Assembly: GCF_000716605.1 (NCBI RefSeq)
Contig: NZ_JNXE01000001.1
Span: 372,001 to 436,000, forward strand
Source: Streptomyces sp. NRRL F-525
Lineage (GTDB): Bacteria > Actinomycetota > Actinomycetes > Streptomycetales > Streptomycetaceae
Direction: 5' to 3'
DNA length: 64,000 nt
Made by a program: the position numbers and the translations under genes. This document shows positions 17,186 to 23,199 of the stretch, in pieces. Position 1 is the first letter of the stretch, and each line of letters opens with the position of its first letter. The notes under the pieces were generated by a model. That model searched no databases, had not been told where the DNA came from, and saw only the letters and a list, made by a program, of their open reading frames with translations.

Positions 17186-18067
17186 GTGCCCCTCGTCACC
17201 ACCGGCGAGCTCGTCACCCGCGCCGCCGAGGCCCGCTCCGCGGTCGCCGCCTTCAACATCATCACGCTGGAACACGTCGAGGCCGTCATCGCCGGCGCCG
17301 AGTCCACCGGCGCCCCCGTCGTCCTCCAAGTCAGCGAGAACGCCGTCAAGTTCCGCTACGGCCGCCTCCTCCCGCTCGCCCGCGCGGCCGTGGCCGCCGC
17401 CGAACGGGCCGCCGTACCAGTGGCGTTGCACCTCGACCACGTCCAGAGCGACGACCTGCTGCGACAGGCACAGGCCGCCGGTTTCAGCTCCGTCATGTAC
17501 GATGCGGCCCGCCTGCCCTACGCCGAGAACCTCGCCGCGACCCGCGCCGCCGCCGACTGGGCCCACGCCCAAGGGCTGTGGATCGAGGCCGAGTTGGGAG
17601 AGGTCGGCGGCAAGAACGGCGAACCGCCCCTCGACGCCCACGCCCCCGGCGCCCGCACCGACCCCGCCCAGGCCCGCGCCTTCGTCGCCGACTCCGGCGT
17701 GGACGCACTGGCCGTGGCCATCGGCAGCTCGCACGCCATGACCACCCGCACGGCCACCCTCGACCACGACCTCCTCAAGCGGCTCACCGCCACCCTGGAC
17801 GTCCCCCTCGTCCTGCACGGCTCCTCGGGAGTCCCCGACGACGAACTGACCGCGGCCGTCGCCGGCGGCATCACCAAGGTCAACGTGGGCACGGCCCTCA
17901 ACCAGGCGATGACCGGCGCGATCCGCACGTTCCTCGCCGATCACCCCGAGGCGGTCGACTCCCGCAAGTACCTGAGCGTGGGCCGGGAGGCGATGGCCGG
18001 GGCGGTGGCCCGGATCATCGGCGTGCTCGCGGGAGGCGGGACTTTGCGGACACGGCCTAGCGCTTGA
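17186..18067 (+). CDS. Class II fructose/tagatose-bisphosphate-type aldolase
   Basis: 293 residues of the zinc-dependent class II aldolase family (GatY/KbaY/AgaY branch). Visible motifs are AFNIITLEHVEAVI, VALHLDHVQSDD with catalytic Asp84 and zinc ligand His85, EAELGEVGGKNGE, the later zinc-ligand segments AIGSSHAM and LVLHGSSGVPD, and the phosphate-binding GGITKVNVGTAL. It cleaves a ketose bisphosphate to dihydroxyacetone phosphate and glyceraldehyde phosphate. GTG start, 33 bases after the SIS gene, same operon. Its last 11 bases overlap the convergent rlmG gene. Tagatose versus fructose specificity cannot be read from the sequence. Confidence 0.88.
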   Translation: MPLVTTGELVTRAAEARSAVAAFNIITLEHVEAVIAGAESTGAPVVLQVSENAVKFRYGRLLPLARAAVAAAERAAVPVALHLDHVQSDDLLRQAQAAGFSSVMYDAARLPYAENLAATRAAADWAHAQGLWIEAELGEVGGKNGEPPLDAHAPGARTDPAQARAFVADSGVDALAVAIGSSHAMTTRTATLDHDLLKRLTATLDVPLVLHGSSGVPDDELTAAVAGGITKVNVGTALNQAMTGAIRTFLADHPEAVDSRKYLSVGREAMAGAVARIIGVLAGGGTLRTRPSA

Positions 18068-19211
18068 CGGCCTTCAGCACCACGAACTTCGCGTCGCTGG
18101 CGACCAGTTGGCTGTTGCCGAAGAGCCGCTTCAGCTTCACGTGGTAGGCGAGATGACGGTTGCCGATCACCCACAGCTCGCCGCCCGGCCGCAGCGCGCG
18201 CCGCGCCCCGCTGAACATCCGCCAGGCCGTCGCGTCGGTCGTCGCCTGGTGGGAGTGGAACGGCGGATTGTTCAGCACGAGGTCCACGCTGTCGGCCGGG
18301 ACCCCGACCAGCCCGTCCCCGACCCTGAACTCGGCATGCCCGGGTGCGCCGTTGGCCTTGTACGTCGCCTCCGCCGAGGCCACGGCCTGGAACGACTCGT
18401 CCACGAACAGGACTTCGGCCTCCGGATCGGCCAGCGACACCGCCGTACCGACGACTCCGTTGCCGCACCCGAGGTCAACGACCTTGCCGAGCCCACGATT
18501 TGAGGGCAGATGCTGGAGGAGGAAACGAGTCCCGATGTCGAGGCGCTCGGCGCAGAACACACCGGCGTGATTGACCACGGTCCGCCCCGAGACGACACCG
18601 ATGCCGTCGGGCAGGGCGTAGCTGTGCGGCCAGGGGTTGGTGCCACGTGCCCCTGACGACCGGGGCGTGCAGTGGATCAGCCGGGCCTTCTTCTCGGCCA
18701 GCGAGGTCCGGGTGGGGCCGAGGATCCGCTCGAACAGCTTCAGCGTCGAGGTGTGGATCTCCTTCACCATGCCGGTCCCGACGACGACGGTGTCGGCGTG
18801 CACCGCGGGCGCCAGCCGCAGCAACTGGTCCTCGAGCAGCGCGAGGCTCTTCGGCACCCGGACCAGCAGCACGTCGACGCGCTCGGGCGGCGGGTCCTGG
18901 GTGGTGAGGAGCTGTACGGAATCAGCGTCCACCTCGTTGCGCGCGAGGTTCGCCCTGGTCGCCTCCTGGGTGAGGAACGAGTCCGTGATCTGCACCGGAC
19001 CGTGCGCCGCGAGCGCCGTGGCCAGGGCGCCCCAGCGGTCGCCCACGATCACGACCGTGCCGGACAGTGGTGTGTCCTGTTCCGCGAGCTGCCGCAGAAG
19101 GTATTCGTCGGAGGCATCCCAGGCGCGCAGCCGGTCGCGCGGGTCCTCGGGGAAGCGGGCCAGGGCGCGGTCGCCCCACGGAGTCGTCATTCGGTCGATA
19201 TGGTCGTCCAT
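18057..19211 (-). CDS. rlmG: 23S rRNA (guanine-N2)-methyltransferase RlmG-like
   Basis: 384 residues with the duplicated RsmC/RlmG architecture. An inactive N-terminal methyltransferase-like domain (residues about 30-190) precedes a functional C-terminal domain. That domain has SAM-binding motif I VVDLGCGNGVVG near 242-253 and catalytic motif IV NNPPFHSH near 315, which marks N2-guanine base methyltransferases. The N-terminal domain presumably recognises rRNA near G1835. RsmC (16S G1207) is the main alternative, since the two share this layout. It lies downstream of the small peptide gene on the same strand but is separated from it by a strong hairpin. Confidence 0.85.
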   Translation of the reverse strand: MDDHIDRMTTPWGDRALARFPEDPRDRLRAWDASDEYLLRQLAEQDTPLSGTVVIVGDRWGALATALAAHGPVQITDSFLTQEATRANLARNEVDADSVQLLTTQDPPPERVDVLLVRVPKSLALLEDQLLRLAPAVHADTVVVGTGMVKEIHTSTLKLFERILGPTRTSLAEKKARLIHCTPRSSGARGTNPWPHSYALPDGIGVVSGRTVVNHAGVFCAERLDIGTRFLLQHLPSNRGLGKVVDLGCGNGVVGTAVSLADPEAEVLFVDESFQAVASAEATYKANGAPGHAEFRVGDGLVGVPADSVDLVLNNPPFHSHQATTDATAWRMFSGARRALRPGGELWVIGNRHLAYHVKLKRLFGNSQLVASDAKFVVLKAVKR

Positions 19212-19277: not shown

Positions 19278-19330
19278 GCGGCGGCCCCGGAGTCCGCCCG
19301 TCCGTCGCACGGGAGTCCCGGGGCCGCCGC
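19278..19330 (-). terminator. Strong hairpin downstream of the small peptide gene
   Basis: A perfect 13-base inverted repeat, GCGGCGGCCCCGG and CCGGGGCCGCCGC, with a 27-base loop, starts 22 bases after the peptide stop in the direction of its transcription. It separates the peptide gene from rlmG, so the peptide is probably made from its own short mRNA. Confidence 0.6.
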
Positions 19331-19352: not shown

Positions 19353-19427
19353 TCAGTTGCTGCCGCCCTGACTCAGGTCGGTGGTCTCCTTCTTGTCGAG
19401 CGGCCGGATCGTGATCTTCTTGATCAT
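19353..19427 (-). CDS. Candidate RiPP precursor or carrier peptide, 24 aa, ending in GGSN
   Basis: A small frame that starts MIKKITIRPL, continues DKKETT and ends DLSQGGSN before TGA. GGAGG lies five bases before the ATG, the best ribosome binding site in this neighbourhood, and a strong hairpin follows the stop. The N-terminal two thirds alternate basic and branched residues and look like a leader helix or strand. The C-terminus is Gly-Gly-Ser-Asn with no Cys. The gene faces an E1-like enzyme gene across a 98-base spacer. Two readings are possible: an MccA-like substrate whose terminal Asn is activated, or a peptide trimmed to Gly-Gly and then activated. I do not recognise it as a named class. 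Confidence 0.6.
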   Translation of the reverse strand: MIKKITIRPLDKKETTDLSQGGSN

Positions 19428-19525
19428 GGGTGCCTCCATCGAAAGACGGGCAGAACCTTGTCACGTGGTTCACGAGTGGACCAGTATGTCATGTGCGCGT
19501 CAAGTGAGGCGAGGGGGATGCCCGG
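19428..19525. promoter_or_regulatory. Divergent promoter region of the candidate RiPP locus
   Basis: This 98-base spacer must hold both promoters. On the minus strand a TTGACG hexamer (19503-19498) could be a -35 for the peptide gene. On the plus strand TTGTCA (19458-19463) with CAGTAT 18 bases on is a weak candidate for the ThiF gene. GAGGGGG at 19512-19518 is the ribosome binding site of the ThiF gene. Confidence 0.3.
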
Positions 19526-20689
19526 GTGACGGAACCTGTCCTGTGGGAGCGGAACGCGACCTCGCCCTGGCGGCCCCGGGTGAAGCCGGAGCACCGTCCC
19601 TACGTGACTCGCGACGGCCATGTCCGCATCGGGAGCGTCGTCCACGGGATCGGCGCCGAGATCGAGGACCCGGACGGCTGGGTGTGGCCGCTGACCCAGG
19701 CTCTGGACGGCATCCGCACCGCGCCCGAGATCGCCGCCGCCGTCGCCGCGGCCCACCCCGGACTCACCACCGACGACGTCCTGGGAGCCATCGCCGATCT
19801 CGCCGAGGCCGGGTTCCTGGAGGACGCGTCCGCCCCGCTGCCCCCGGAGTTCACCGAACGCGACCGGGAGCGCTACGGCCGCGGGGTCGCCCTGCTGCGC
19901 TGGATGGACCTCTCGCCCCGCACCGGGAGCTGGGAGGTGCAGCGCGGGCTGGCACACGCGCGCGTGCTGCTCGTCGGACTCGGCGGCGCCGGCGGTGGCG
20001 CGGCCCAGGGGCTCGTCGCCTCCGGCATCGGTCACCTGCGCTGCCTGGACCCCGACGTCGTGGAGCTCTCCAATCTCAACCGGCAGGTCCTCTACCGGGA
20101 ACGGGACATCGGCCGGCCCAAGGTGGACGCGGCCCTGGAGTCCCTGCGTGCTCTGAACTCCGATGTCGAGATCACCGGCGCGCGGCAGCGGATCGACAGC
20201 CCCGACGAACTGGAGGCACTCCTGGGCCCGGGACCAGGTGGCGGCGGCCCCGACCTGCTCGTGCTGAGCGCCGACCATCCGCCCGAGATCCGCCACTGGG
20301 CCAACCATGCCTGTCTGCGGACCGGCACACCGTGGATCGAGGGCGGCTACCGGGGACCGTACGTCACGGTCGGGGTGTTCGCGCCCGGCCGTGGCGCCTG
20401 CTTCGAGTGCCACCGCGACCAGGACGCCGACTCCCGCGATCTGCGCCTCGCGCCCGGCCAGGACCCGGAGTCGGTGTCGCCGCGGATGGACTGGGGCCCC
20501 GTCAACGCGGCGACCGCCACCCTCTCGGCCGGCCTGCTCGTCCACGCGGCGATCAGCCTCCTCACCGGCGTGCCGGCGGTCGAACCGGGCTACCGGTACG
20601 GCATCAACCTGATGCTGCCGGGAGAGGCGGAGCTGAACCGCTACCCCCGGCGACCCGCCTGCCGGTCCTGCGGCGGGAACGCGCCGTGA
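19526..20689 (+). CDS. ThiF/E1-like adenylyltransferase with N-terminal RRE-like domain
   Basis: 387 residues. Positions 28-105 form a small winged-helix-like domain (GHVRIGSVVHGIGAEIEDPDGW, then helices to AEAGFLED) resembling the PqqD-type recognition element and the peptide clamp of MccB. The E1 core follows: nucleotide loop VLLVGLGGAGGGAAQG at 147-162, LDPDVVELSNLNRQ with the catalytic Asn/Arg at 183-187, Lys199 in GRPKV, Asp250, and a Cys4 zinc site (CFEC 292-295, CRSC 379-382). Such enzymes adenylate a peptide C-terminus. No YcaO partner and no rhodanese domain are present. GTG start with GAGGGGG upstream. It overlaps the protease gene by GTGA. Confidence 0.85.
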   Translation: MTEPVLWERNATSPWRPRVKPEHRPYVTRDGHVRIGSVVHGIGAEIEDPDGWVWPLTQALDGIRTAPEIAAAVAAAHPGLTTDDVLGAIADLAEAGFLEDASAPLPPEFTERDRERYGRGVALLRWMDLSPRTGSWEVQRGLAHARVLLVGLGGAGGGAAQGLVASGIGHLRCLDPDVVELSNLNRQVLYRERDIGRPKVDAALESLRALNSDVEITGARQRIDSPDELEALLGPGPGGGGPDLLVLSADHPPEIRHWANHACLRTGTPWIEGGYRGPYVTVGVFAPGRGACFECHRDQDADSRDLRLAPGQDPESVSPRMDWGPVNAATATLSAGLLVHAAISLLTGVPAVEPGYRYGINLMLPGEAELNRYPRRPACRSCGGNAP

Positions 20690-21903
20690 GCGACGGCGCG
20701 GCGACGACGATCGCGGTGGGGGCGGCCTCCCGGGTGCGGCTGCACGACTTGACCCGGCGGCCGGACGGTGGGGAGTGGATCGTCGGACGCCGCGAGACCC
20801 GGACGTTCGTGGCCGTACCCGAAGCCGGTATCCGCGTCATCCGGCTGCTGGAGCGGGGCCTGAGCGTCGAGGAGTCCCAGGAGCGGCTGCTCGCGGAGAC
20901 CGGCGAGGAGGTCGACGTGGCCGACTTCGTCCGCGACCTCATCGCCCTGGGCTTCGTGGCCGAGGCGGAGGGCCGCCCGCTGGCCACGGACCCGGTACGC
21001 CCGGCGTCCCTCGCCGGACTGCGGCCCGCACACGTGCGCTTCCTGCTGAACCCATGGCTCCCGCTGCTCCCGGCCGCCCTCGTCCTCGCCGCCCTGACCG
21101 CCTTCCTACGGCATCCCGAACTCATGCCCACCTACCACGACCTGTTGTGGAGCGACCGGGGAAGCGTCGTGATCCTCACCGGTGCCGTCGTGGGCTGGTC
21201 GATCGTCCTGCTGCACGAGCTGGCGCACCTCGCCGTGGGCCGGGCCGCAGGCGTCCCCGGCCGGATCGGATTCGGGACCAGACTGCAGTTCCTGGTCGTC
21301 CAGACGGACATCAGCGGCATCGAACTCGCCCCCAGACGCCACCGGTTGACGGCCTATCTCGCCGGCATCGCCGTCAACCTCGGCGTGGCCGCCACCGCGT
21401 TCCTGCTCCTCACCGTGACAACGCCCGGCTCGGCCGCGCACCGGCTGCTCGCGGCGACGGTCCTGTGGGCGCTGCTGCCGCTCACCTTCCAGCTGATGAT
21501 GTTCATGCGCACGGACGTCTACTTCGTCCTGCAGGACCTGACCGGCTGCCGGGACCTGTACGGGGACGGCCGCGCCTACGCCCGTCACCTGACCAGGCGC
21601 CTGCTGCGCCGGGAGGACCCCGCGGCCGACCCCAGCCGCCCGCTGCCGCCGGCCGAACGGCGTGCCGTGCGGGTCTACAGCGCGGTCCTGGTCGTCGGAA
21701 CCGCCCTCTGCCTGGCCGGACTCGCGTTCTACACCGCTCCCGCGGACGTCCGGCTCGCCGTCCGCGCGGTGGCCCACCTGCGCGCGGCGCACACGGGCGC
21801 CGACCTCGCCGACGCGCTCTTGACCCTCGCCTCGCTGGCCGCTATCCACGTGCTGTGGCTCACCACGCGCTGGCGCAACCGCCGGTCCCGTCGCGGAAGT
21901 TGA
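20686..21903 (+). CDS. PqqD-like domain fused to an M50-type membrane metalloprotease
   Basis: 405 residues. The first 100 residues form a PqqD-like winged helix (WIVGRRETRTFVAVPEAGIRVIRLLERGLSVEES, then DVADFVRDLIALGFVAE). The rest is a membrane protein with about seven helices. It carries HELAH at 177-181 in one helix, and FMRTDVYFVLQDLTG in a later helix, which corresponds to the TDGYYVLxDL motif giving the third zinc ligand in M50 peptide zinc metalloproteases. This family commonly sits in RiPP loci and is thought to cut or export modified peptides. GTG start inside the ThiF stop indicates translational coupling. Confidence 0.85.
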   Translation: MSDGAATTIAVGAASRVRLHDLTRRPDGGEWIVGRRETRTFVAVPEAGIRVIRLLERGLSVEESQERLLAETGEEVDVADFVRDLIALGFVAEAEGRPLATDPVRPASLAGLRPAHVRFLLNPWLPLLPAALVLAALTAFLRHPELMPTYHDLLWSDRGSVVILTGAVVGWSIVLLHELAHLAVGRAAGVPGRIGFGTRLQFLVVQTDISGIELAPRRHRLTAYLAGIAVNLGVAATAFLLLTVTTPGSAAHRLLAATVLWALLPLTFQLMMFMRTDVYFVLQDLTGCRDLYGDGRAYARHLTRRLLRREDPAADPSRPLPPAERRAVRVYSAVLVVGTALCLAGLAFYTAPADVRLAVRAVAHLRAAHTGADLADALLTLASLAAIHVLWLTTRWRNRRSRRGS

Positions 21904-21920
21904 CCGAAAGGTGTCCCCGC

Positions 21921-22532
21921 ATGTCAGACCTGTTCCCGGCCACCGGGGGCACATACCTCGACCAGGACGCGTACATCGCCGACTTCGACCGCCGCTTCTG
22001 GCGCACCGACGCCGAGGGCTTCTGGAAACTGGAGCGGATGCAGAGCTACGACGAGGGGGACTTCCCCAGCTGGCAGGCGCTGCGCCACGGCGACTGGGAC
22101 CAATCCCTGCGCCTGATCGAGGAGTTGCGCCCCGAGTACGAGGAGCACTACGGCAAGATCGCGGCGGCGGGCTTCGCGATGCACCGGGTCCGTGTCGTCG
22201 AGACCCCGCTCATCCCGTACATCCAGTGGGAGTTGACCATCCTCCACACCAAGTTCGGGTACGGGGAGCGCGTCAACGTACTGGACGCCGCGGAGGTGGC
22301 GGGGGAGGAGACCGAGGGCCCTCTGCCGGAACTCTGCGTGATGGGCACCGACGCGGTGTACGTCCTCGACTACTCCCCGGCGGACGAGCCCAACGGCGCC
22401 GTCCGCCACACCGACCCCGCCACGGTGACCCGGGCCCGCACCTTCATTCAGCGCCTCTACGCGGCCGGCGAGGCCCTGGACACCTATTTCCCGCGCGAGG
22501 TGGCCGGACTGCCGGCTCCCCGCGGTCTGTGA
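21921..22532 (+). CDS. DUF6879 family protein
   Basis: 203 residues, soluble and acidic. It contains the pattern I associate with DUF6879: FDRRFWRTDAEGFWKLERMQSYDEGDFPSWQALRHGDWDQSLRLIEE, then HRVRVVETPLIPYIQWEL. The family is frequent in Streptomyces, usually beside XRE regulators, and has no known activity. Here it follows the protease gene by 17 bases and is probably the last gene of the candidate RiPP operon, which would be an unusual setting for it. The ATG at 21921 has AAAGG upstream. Confidence 0.75.
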   Translation: MSDLFPATGGTYLDQDAYIADFDRRFWRTDAEGFWKLERMQSYDEGDFPSWQALRHGDWDQSLRLIEELRPEYEEHYGKIAAAGFAMHRVRVVETPLIPYIQWELTILHTKFGYGERVNVLDAAEVAGEETEGPLPELCVMGTDAVYVLDYSPADEPNGAVRHTDPATVTRARTFIQRLYAAGEALDTYFPREVAGLPAPRGL

Positions 22533-22548: not shown

Positions 22549-23199
22549 ATGGCGGGCATGGACGCCGAACTCTTCCCGAGGCTCCGGACGGAGGTCGCTC
22601 CCGGCGCCGTACACCTCCCGGACTGGCTCGACCCCGAGCACCAGCGCGACCTGCTGGAGGCCTGCCGCACCTGGGCCCGCCCACCCGCCGGCCTGCGCAC
22701 GGTCCACACCCCCGGCGGCGGCACGATGACCGCCCGGCAGGTCTGCCTGGGCTGGCACTGGTACCCGTACGCCTACTCCCGCACGGCGACCGACGGCGAC
22801 GGCACCCCTGTCAAACCCTTCCCGACCTGGCTCGACGAACTCGCCCAGCGGGCGGTCACCGACGCACTGGGGGCACCGACGGCGTCGTACGACATCGCCC
22901 TGATCAACTTCTACGACGGCGACGCCCGCATGGGCATGCACCGCGACAGCGACGAACACTCCGGCGCCCCCGTGGTCTCCCTCAGCCTCGGCGACACCTG
23001 CGTCTTCCGCTTCGGCAACACCGAGACCCGCACGAAGCCGTACACGGACGTCGAGTTGAGAAGCGGCGACCTGTTCGTGTTCGGGGGGCCGTCGAGGCTG
23101 GCGTATCACGGGGTGCCGAGGGTGTACGAGGGCACGGGGCCAAGGGAGTTGGGGCTGAGGGGGAGGTTGAACGTGACGCTGAGAGTGAGCGGCTTCTGA
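22549..23199 (+). CDS. alkB: AlkB-like 2-oxoglutarate/Fe(II)-dependent DNA repair dioxygenase
   Basis: 216 residues. The double-stranded beta-helix carries the iron ligands His and Asp in GMHRDSDEHSGAPVVSLSLGDTCVFRFG and the distal His in LAYHGVPRV. The Arg that binds 2-oxoglutarate is in LRGRLNVTLRVSGF, the standard AlkB C-terminus. It removes alkyl groups from damaged bases by oxidative demethylation. ATG 22549 is taken as the start, but ATG 22558 is equally possible and neither has a clear ribosome binding site. It follows the DUF6879 gene by 16 bases, though a functional link is unlikely. Confidence 0.9.
   Translation: MAGMDAELFPRLRTEVAPGAVHLPDWLDPEHQRDLLEACRTWARPPAGLRTVHTPGGGTMTARQVCLGWHWYPYAYSRTATDGDGTPVKPFPTWLDELAQRAVTDALGAPTASYDIALINFYDGDARMGMHRDSDEHSGAPVVSLSLGDTCVFRFGNTETRTKPYTDVELRSGDLFVFGGPSRLAYHGVPRVYEGTGPRELGLRGRLNVTLRVSGF

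Follow-up and report, generated by a model that had tools for sequence, protein, structure and literature searches.

A candidate ThiF-type modified-peptide locus with a conserved 24-residue precursor in Streptomyces sp. NRRL F-525

Ribosomally synthesized and post-translationally modified peptides (RiPPs) include a group whose enzymes are ThiF-like adenylyltransferases fused to a RiPP recognition element (RRE), namely microcin C, pantocin A, GRC, enterofaecin and IndF. In the parts of the literature on them available to us, such enzymes come from enterobacteria, bacilli, streptococci and enterococci. The pantocin precursor PaaP has a Glu-Glu-Asn core, and the partners of its enzyme PaaA are the 2-oxoglutarate oxygenase PaaB and the exporter PaaC (PMC12250964). 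The streptococcal and enterococcal RRE-ThiF enzymes IndF, EnfB and GrcB adenylate a peptide carboxylate and thereby close small rings (PMC12250964). Here we describe a locus at positions 19,353 to 22,532 of a 64,000-nucleotide stretch of Streptomyces sp. NRRL F-525 (contig NZ_JNXE01000001.1, positions 372,001 to 436,000; hereafter the window), in which a short peptide gene faces a gene for an RRE-fused E1/ThiF-like enzyme. Judged by its sequence, it is a RiPP locus of this known kind and belongs to an apparently undescribed actinobacterial subfamily.

A conserved peptide gene beside an RRE-fused E1 enzyme

ThiF homologues were surveyed with an E-value limit specific to each survey, the window's own genome being included in every count. 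Of 199 relatives, 24 had one, as did 35 of 392 genus genomes, 53 of 394 family genomes and 13 of 394 class genomes, and a contig collection held six further loci. Close homologues that carry a name were mostly from Streptomyces. The final set comprises 107 ThiF loci, with three duplicate contigs removed and seven places from the family survey not included; the window locus and that of a sister species (L176, 93% ThiF identity) are both among them.

A sequence-only reading of the window had proposed a search for the gene block and the peptide in relatives. This search was productive: at 94 of 107 loci, a short open reading frame (ORF) preceded by a ribosome-binding-like sequence whose product carries I-x-[IV]-R-x-L-D-[KR]-x-E-T-[TI], or a motif near to it, lies beside the RRE-E1 homologue, giving 106 precursors. 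With one identical ORF pattern, drafted after the first peptides had been seen, there were 70 matches near ThiF (59 of 69 loci, 0.277 per kb) versus 0.0048 per kb in the outer flanks (2 matches over 415 kb). The sister-species peptide is identical letter for letter, and the two genes differ at 2 of 75 bases, both silent; elsewhere the two loci differ at 17 of 141 (12%) and 19 of 98 (19%) positions of the flanking gaps and at 65 of 1164 within ThiF. Across the precursor alignment, 9250 of 17935 differences fall at third codon positions, a descriptive figure as the sequences are related. Sequence conservation thus establishes the 24-residue ORF at 19353-19427 as a conserved gene, and its pairing with the RRE-E1 enzyme is highly probable. 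Since this pairing recurs in many Streptomyces relatives, the locus very likely makes a modified peptide, and we infer that the peptide is the enzyme's substrate.

Thirteen loci lack a motif precursor (L048, L052-L055, L059, L130, L132, L133, L183, L198, L207, L212); of these, L183 starts at a contig start, the motif of L212 is shifted, and L052-L055 have another short peptide. The latter four carry a different ThiF subfamily, with short peptides of the MTTRKASIAG... type (two copies in L054) preceded by ribosome-binding sites upstream of the ThiF-like gene and an MFS-transporter-like gene downstream; they may represent another RiPP type. At L033, from Glycomyces, there are two ThiF-like genes, a single M50 protease and three precursors, all different. 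The precursors of L106 and L200, which adjoin M14 and ThiF genes, have drifted motifs (LGKKETA, LAKKQTA) and are possibly decaying.

The window enzyme matches Pfam ThiF (PF00899) with an E-value of 5.9e-45. Its closest solved sequence is PaaA (5ff5, E 7.6e-31), the alignment beginning at residue 16, and in structural comparison its model matches MccB from residue 15 onwards and PaaA from residue 20. The modelled fold is like that of MccB and PaaA, recognition domain included, as the sequence-only reading had suggested. The match to PF21475 (E 3.9e-4) is below the cut-off; 23 of 53 family members match Pfam PaaA-like_N at E<=0.01, the window enzyme falling under the curated cut-off. Arg186 and Lys199 are invariant in 53 sequences and align with NRQ...GKNK of PaaA, indicating an intact ATP-site Arg and Lys; Asp250 and cysteines 292, 295, 379 and 382, which form two CxxC pairs, are also invariant. 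An E1 domain with these ATP-site residues, a fused recognition domain and an adjoining precursor gene are therefore all present, and the pairing together with the MccB/PaaA-like fold places the locus among the ThiF-adenylyltransferase RiPPs. The features of the locus are as follows.

19278..19330, minus strand: inverted repeat 3' of the peptide gene with 13-bp perfect arms (19278-19290 and 19318-19330), a possible terminator
19353..19427, minus strand: precursor peptide gene, 24 aa, MIKKITIRPLDKKETTDLSQGGSN
19428..19525, no strand: divergent intergenic region of 98 bp, presumably holding both promoters (position only)
19433..19437, minus strand: Shine-Dalgarno GGAGG of the peptide gene, before the ATG (CCTCC; read from the sequence)
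19526..20689, plus strand: RRE-fused E1/ThiF-like adenylyltransferase of the PaaA/MccB type, 387 aa (profile, alignment, structure model)
19571..19825, plus strand: N-terminal RRE-like recognition domain of the E1, about residues 16-100 (PaaA alignment, model against MccB and PaaA, PF21475)
20686..21903, plus strand: M50 intramembrane metalloprotease with a weak PqqD-like match, 405 aa (HELAH, residues 177-181)
21921..22532, plus strand: DUF6879 protein, 203 aa (Pfam E 3.2e-34)

The arrangement agrees with the earlier description of a tiny gene with GGAGG facing a ThiF-like gene, here 98 bases away, of a GTGA overlap between the ThiF and M50 genes, and of a DUF6879 gene starting 17 bases beyond the M50 gene. 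The hairpin terminator assigned to the peptide gene holds up as a perfect inverted repeat, but the repeat lacks a T-run, terminator scoring of the region gave none, and its fold is ordinary relative to shuffled sequences (z -1.55). No sigma-70-like site was found in the 98-bp intergenic region.

The same reading had held that the locus fits no standard class. It does fit the RRE-fused ThiF-like RiPPs, although it is none of the named types. Pantocin A shares the RRE, the E1 domain and a short precursor built of leader, central motif and tail; it differs in that the present precursors have a K-x-E-T-T core together with a nucleophile, and M50 and M14 or DUF6879 as partners. The window core, KKETT, is not Glu-Glu-Asn-like, and of the 106 precursors those of L032 and L179 alone have Glu-Glu at that place. 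IndF, EnfB and GrcB differ, by description, in their precursors, partners and links (Trp-Ile, imide, Glu-Cys). Like daptide loci, the window has a membrane M50 protease, but the daptide model NF041824 does not support membership (29.4 bits; cut-off 300). Nor does TIGR03882 support an azole RiPP (TOMM) E1-like partner (18 bits; cut-off 36.9). An E1-E2 defence system, which would combine the E1 with E2 and JAB partners, is not supported by the scan of the ThiF, M50 and DUF6879 proteins: the PADLOC E1-E2 models match the adenylation stretch only, and the M50 and DUF6879 proteins gave no PADLOC match.

Against Pfam and NCBIfam the window precursor gave no match, nor did eight other precursors against NCBIfam; one 41-residue precursor has five database relatives, of which the three named are all called "hypothetical protein". 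The strings LDKKETT, KETTGDS, RPLDKKE and KKETTG were not found in the open-licence literature searched; a description elsewhere is possible. Likewise, in the portions available of PMC12250964, PMC12150305, PMC12710340, PMC7470986 and PMC6495379 neither the precursor nor the gene set is described, and they could be described elsewhere; the terms Streptomyces, M50, M14 and carboxypeptidase are absent from PMC12250964. According to PMC12150305, other clusters of its ThiF network (Figure S1) may encode new RiPP chemistry, and the present enzymes may sit in that network.

Leader motif, tail and the proposed ring

The window peptide is numbered from M1 to N24, with I5, I7, R8, L10, D11, K12, K13, E14, T15, T16, D17, L18, S19 and Q20 ahead of the final GGSN. 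It comprises a recognition stretch (I5-x-I7-R8-x-L10), the conserved D11-K-x-E14-T-T16 and the tail DLSQGGSN, with Ser19 as candidate nucleophile. The first 69 precursors yielded 49 unique motif windows, of which 47 have Arg at -2, 47 have Leu at 0 and 47 have Glu at +4. Asp11 is substituted in L032, L106 and L200, and Glu replaces it in several precursors. From the alternating hydrophobic pattern I-x-I-R-x-L we infer a likeness to an RRE-bound strand, such that residues 5-16 (ITIRPLDKKETT) would bind the recognition domain as a beta-strand. The recognition motif of PaaA is reported as FxxLxxRI and that of EnfB, in the EnfA leader, as (V/I)RKA, which resembles the [IV]R of the precursors here (PMC12250964). 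The unusual GGSN C-terminus noted earlier is indeed that of the window peptide but is not a conserved part, being confined to the window and its sister species among the 106 precursors.

The E1 domain would then adenylate a carboxylate of the bound peptide, and we lean towards the C-terminal one. Attack by Ser19, the third residue after ETT, would give a 19-atom macrolactone from S19 to N24, with Cys, Thr or Lys in its place in other members. In the 61 unique tails of the 106 precursors, this third residue is S, K, C or T in 84% (37 S, 9 K, 3 C, 2 T), and the remaining tail places counted from the motif hold S, T, C or K in only 15-31%. Exchange among chemically able residues is the behaviour expected of a nucleophile. 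With the C-terminal carboxylate as partner, 39 of the 61 unique tails would form a 19-atom ring: 27 with Ser (8 residues), one with Cys, all 9 with Lys (7 residues) and both 9-residue tails that have an extra residue before the Ser. This constancy is suggestive but not statistical proof, because the Lys tails form one clade. For the window peptide, a 19-atom Ser lactone made by a RiPP locus as described is a plausible but tentative assignment.

Several observations weigh against a ring closed at the C-terminus. Eleven tails would give 22 atoms (mostly the GGNGG class) and five would give 13, 16 or 25, and in six unique tails neither position 3 nor position 4 is S, T, C or K. The events that carry information are few, namely one switch between Ser and Lys and two insertions, and the ring-size argument arose after the data had been inspected. 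The last residue is highly variable (N, A, S, G, T, R and others), which is odd for an activating enzyme, and the M14 carboxypeptidase at 54 loci could cut it off. When tail places are counted from the C-end, none exceeds the 61% of unique tails that have S, T, C or K at -6, versus 84% at +3 from the motif, which favours a nucleophile anchored to the leader. Glu14 is the most constant acidic residue, its place being Glu in 101 and Gln in 5 of 106 precursors. Rough gene calls over about 5 kb around the window ThiF included no transporter.

Some of these points bear on the main rival, PaaA/GRC-like activation of the Glu14 side chain. Here Ser19 (Cys, Thr or Lys elsewhere) would attack the adenylated side chain, or a pantocin A-like rearrangement would follow, and the tail would be a trimmed follower, a role that trimming by M14 suits. 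PaaA, the closest solved sequence, acts on an internal Glu between leader and follower (PMC12250964); near-constancy of Glu is expected if it is modified, and the nucleophile stands five residues past it in 84% of unique tails, the C-end anchor being looser. However, Gln at the Glu place in five precursors (L056, L057 and, beside M14 genes, L098, L195 and L200, the last with an otherwise drifted motif) counts against this reading. The strict precursor pattern demands E or Q at that place; a looser leader pattern does not, and among its extra matches no precursor with a different residue in this position was convincing. In addition, the two insertion tails alter the Glu-Ser spacing yet hold the spacing from Ser to the C-end, and the nine Lys tails are all one residue shorter, which the Glu model does not predict. 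We regard Glu activation as the less likely of the two readings.

A microcin C-like reaction, in which the C-terminal Asn24 becomes a nucleotide phosphoramidate (peptide-AMP or -CMP), is improbable. MccA, the substrate of MccB (3h5n, 3h9g), ends in Asn, as does the window peptide itself; in the family, though, the last residue varies and is Asn in only 12 of 61 unique tails. M50 and M14 are not mentioned in a review of such enzymes (PMC12250964), and no transporter was seen beside the window locus. More improbable still is a ubiquitin-like route without a ring, in which C-terminal trimming would expose a Gly for the E1 to activate and join to another molecule or load with sulfur: Gly second from the end in 36 of 61 unique tails, the M14 carboxypeptidase, the E1 fold and a nearly invariant Cys263 besides the two CxxC pairs speak for it, but a beta-grasp domain could not be built from 24 residues, an equivalent of Cys263 exists in MccB, which needs no thioester (PMC12250964), and the PADLOC matches are limited to the adenylation part.

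Partner genes of the ThiF loci

After ring closure at the C-terminus, removal of the leader would fall to the membrane M50 protease, for which its PqqD-like domain may act as a guide, and the ring would be exported. The window M50 protein is, from its sequence, likely the leader protease, and a PqqD-M50 homologue lies near ThiF at 65 of 107 loci. The earlier name PqqD-M50 is borne out by HELAH and an M50 score of 25.6 bits, slightly under the Pfam cut-off of 27.2, but less so in its PqqD part, a weak match (E 0.1) under the cut-off.

Among the accessories, an M14 carboxypeptidase encoded on the same strand as the peptide is the most frequent (54 of 107 loci); the window locus lacks it. DUF6879 is a minority accessory (14 loci), present in the clade of the window. 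M50 and DUF6879 both stand near ThiF at 13 of 107 loci, window included, which speaks for the sequence-only reading. M14 and DUF6879 never occur together (0 of 107; Fisher p 2e-5, a value that overstates their exclusivity because few clades underlie it). From these counts, the subfamily gene set is a precursor and an RRE-E1, usually a PqqD-M50, plus M14 or DUF6879. The accessory DUF6879 may be a binding or regulatory protein; its predicted phospholipase-D-like fold does not support a C-terminal peptidase in place of M14. Other DUF6879 copies in the window genome (L149, L150) lie beside XRE-type-regulator-like genes, and DUF6879 may belong to regulatory pairs. A rule linking Asn-ended tails to DUF6879 was dropped: L195, L200, L204 and L205 (M14) and L202 (neither) end in Asn, and the tails of the DUF6879 loci L119, L120 and L129 do not.

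M14 was rejected as an exclusive mark of the system, with homologues (E<=1e-60) in 22 of 61 relatives, mostly genomes without a reported ThiF homologue. Its absence from the window locus as a true loss is weakened by four M14 genes elsewhere in the same genome, one of them 77% identical to the M14 of L036; in the three flanking stretches examined, neither the precursor motif nor a significant match to ThiF turned up. L145, L146 and L147 are such stand-alone M14 homologues in the window genome, and L147 has EamA-like and aminopeptidase-like neighbours in common with L039, L044 and L045, as if the remaining locus had been lost there.

Two neighbours of the window locus were dismissed as partners, since neither occurs at any of the 107 loci other than those of the window and its sister species: a downstream AlkB-like gene (22549-23199), considered since pantocin uses a 2-oxoglutarate oxygenase, and an RlmG-like gene (18057-19211). 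ABC exporter, S26 peptidase-like and thioredoxin-like genes stand beside the ThiF/peptide pair at L047, L115, L116, L214 and L105, with a MauE-like gene in all but L105. SARP-regulator-like genes lie near several Lys-tail loci; these names and those of the exporter-associated genes are read from the sequences.

A possible cyclic-peptide class

A broader proposal, which we consider possible but doubtful, is a cyclic-peptide class, not yet described, in Streptomyces, Actinacidiphila, Microbispora and Glycomyces, in which the RRE-E1 would join the C-terminus to a side chain through an exchangeable nucleophile (Ser lactone, Cys thiolactone, Lys lactam), giving rings of mostly 19 atoms released by M50. 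In its small ring such a class would resemble autoinducing peptides, but with an enzyme of the ubiquitin-activation type and M50 release. The 106 precursors predict which residues join, and natural Ser, Cys and Lys variants are available for testing this prediction. The subfamily reaches 35 of 392 sampled genus genomes and 53 of 394 family genomes; if true, the ring reading would connect E1 chemistry with the making of small peptide rings in a genus that is a major source of antibiotics.

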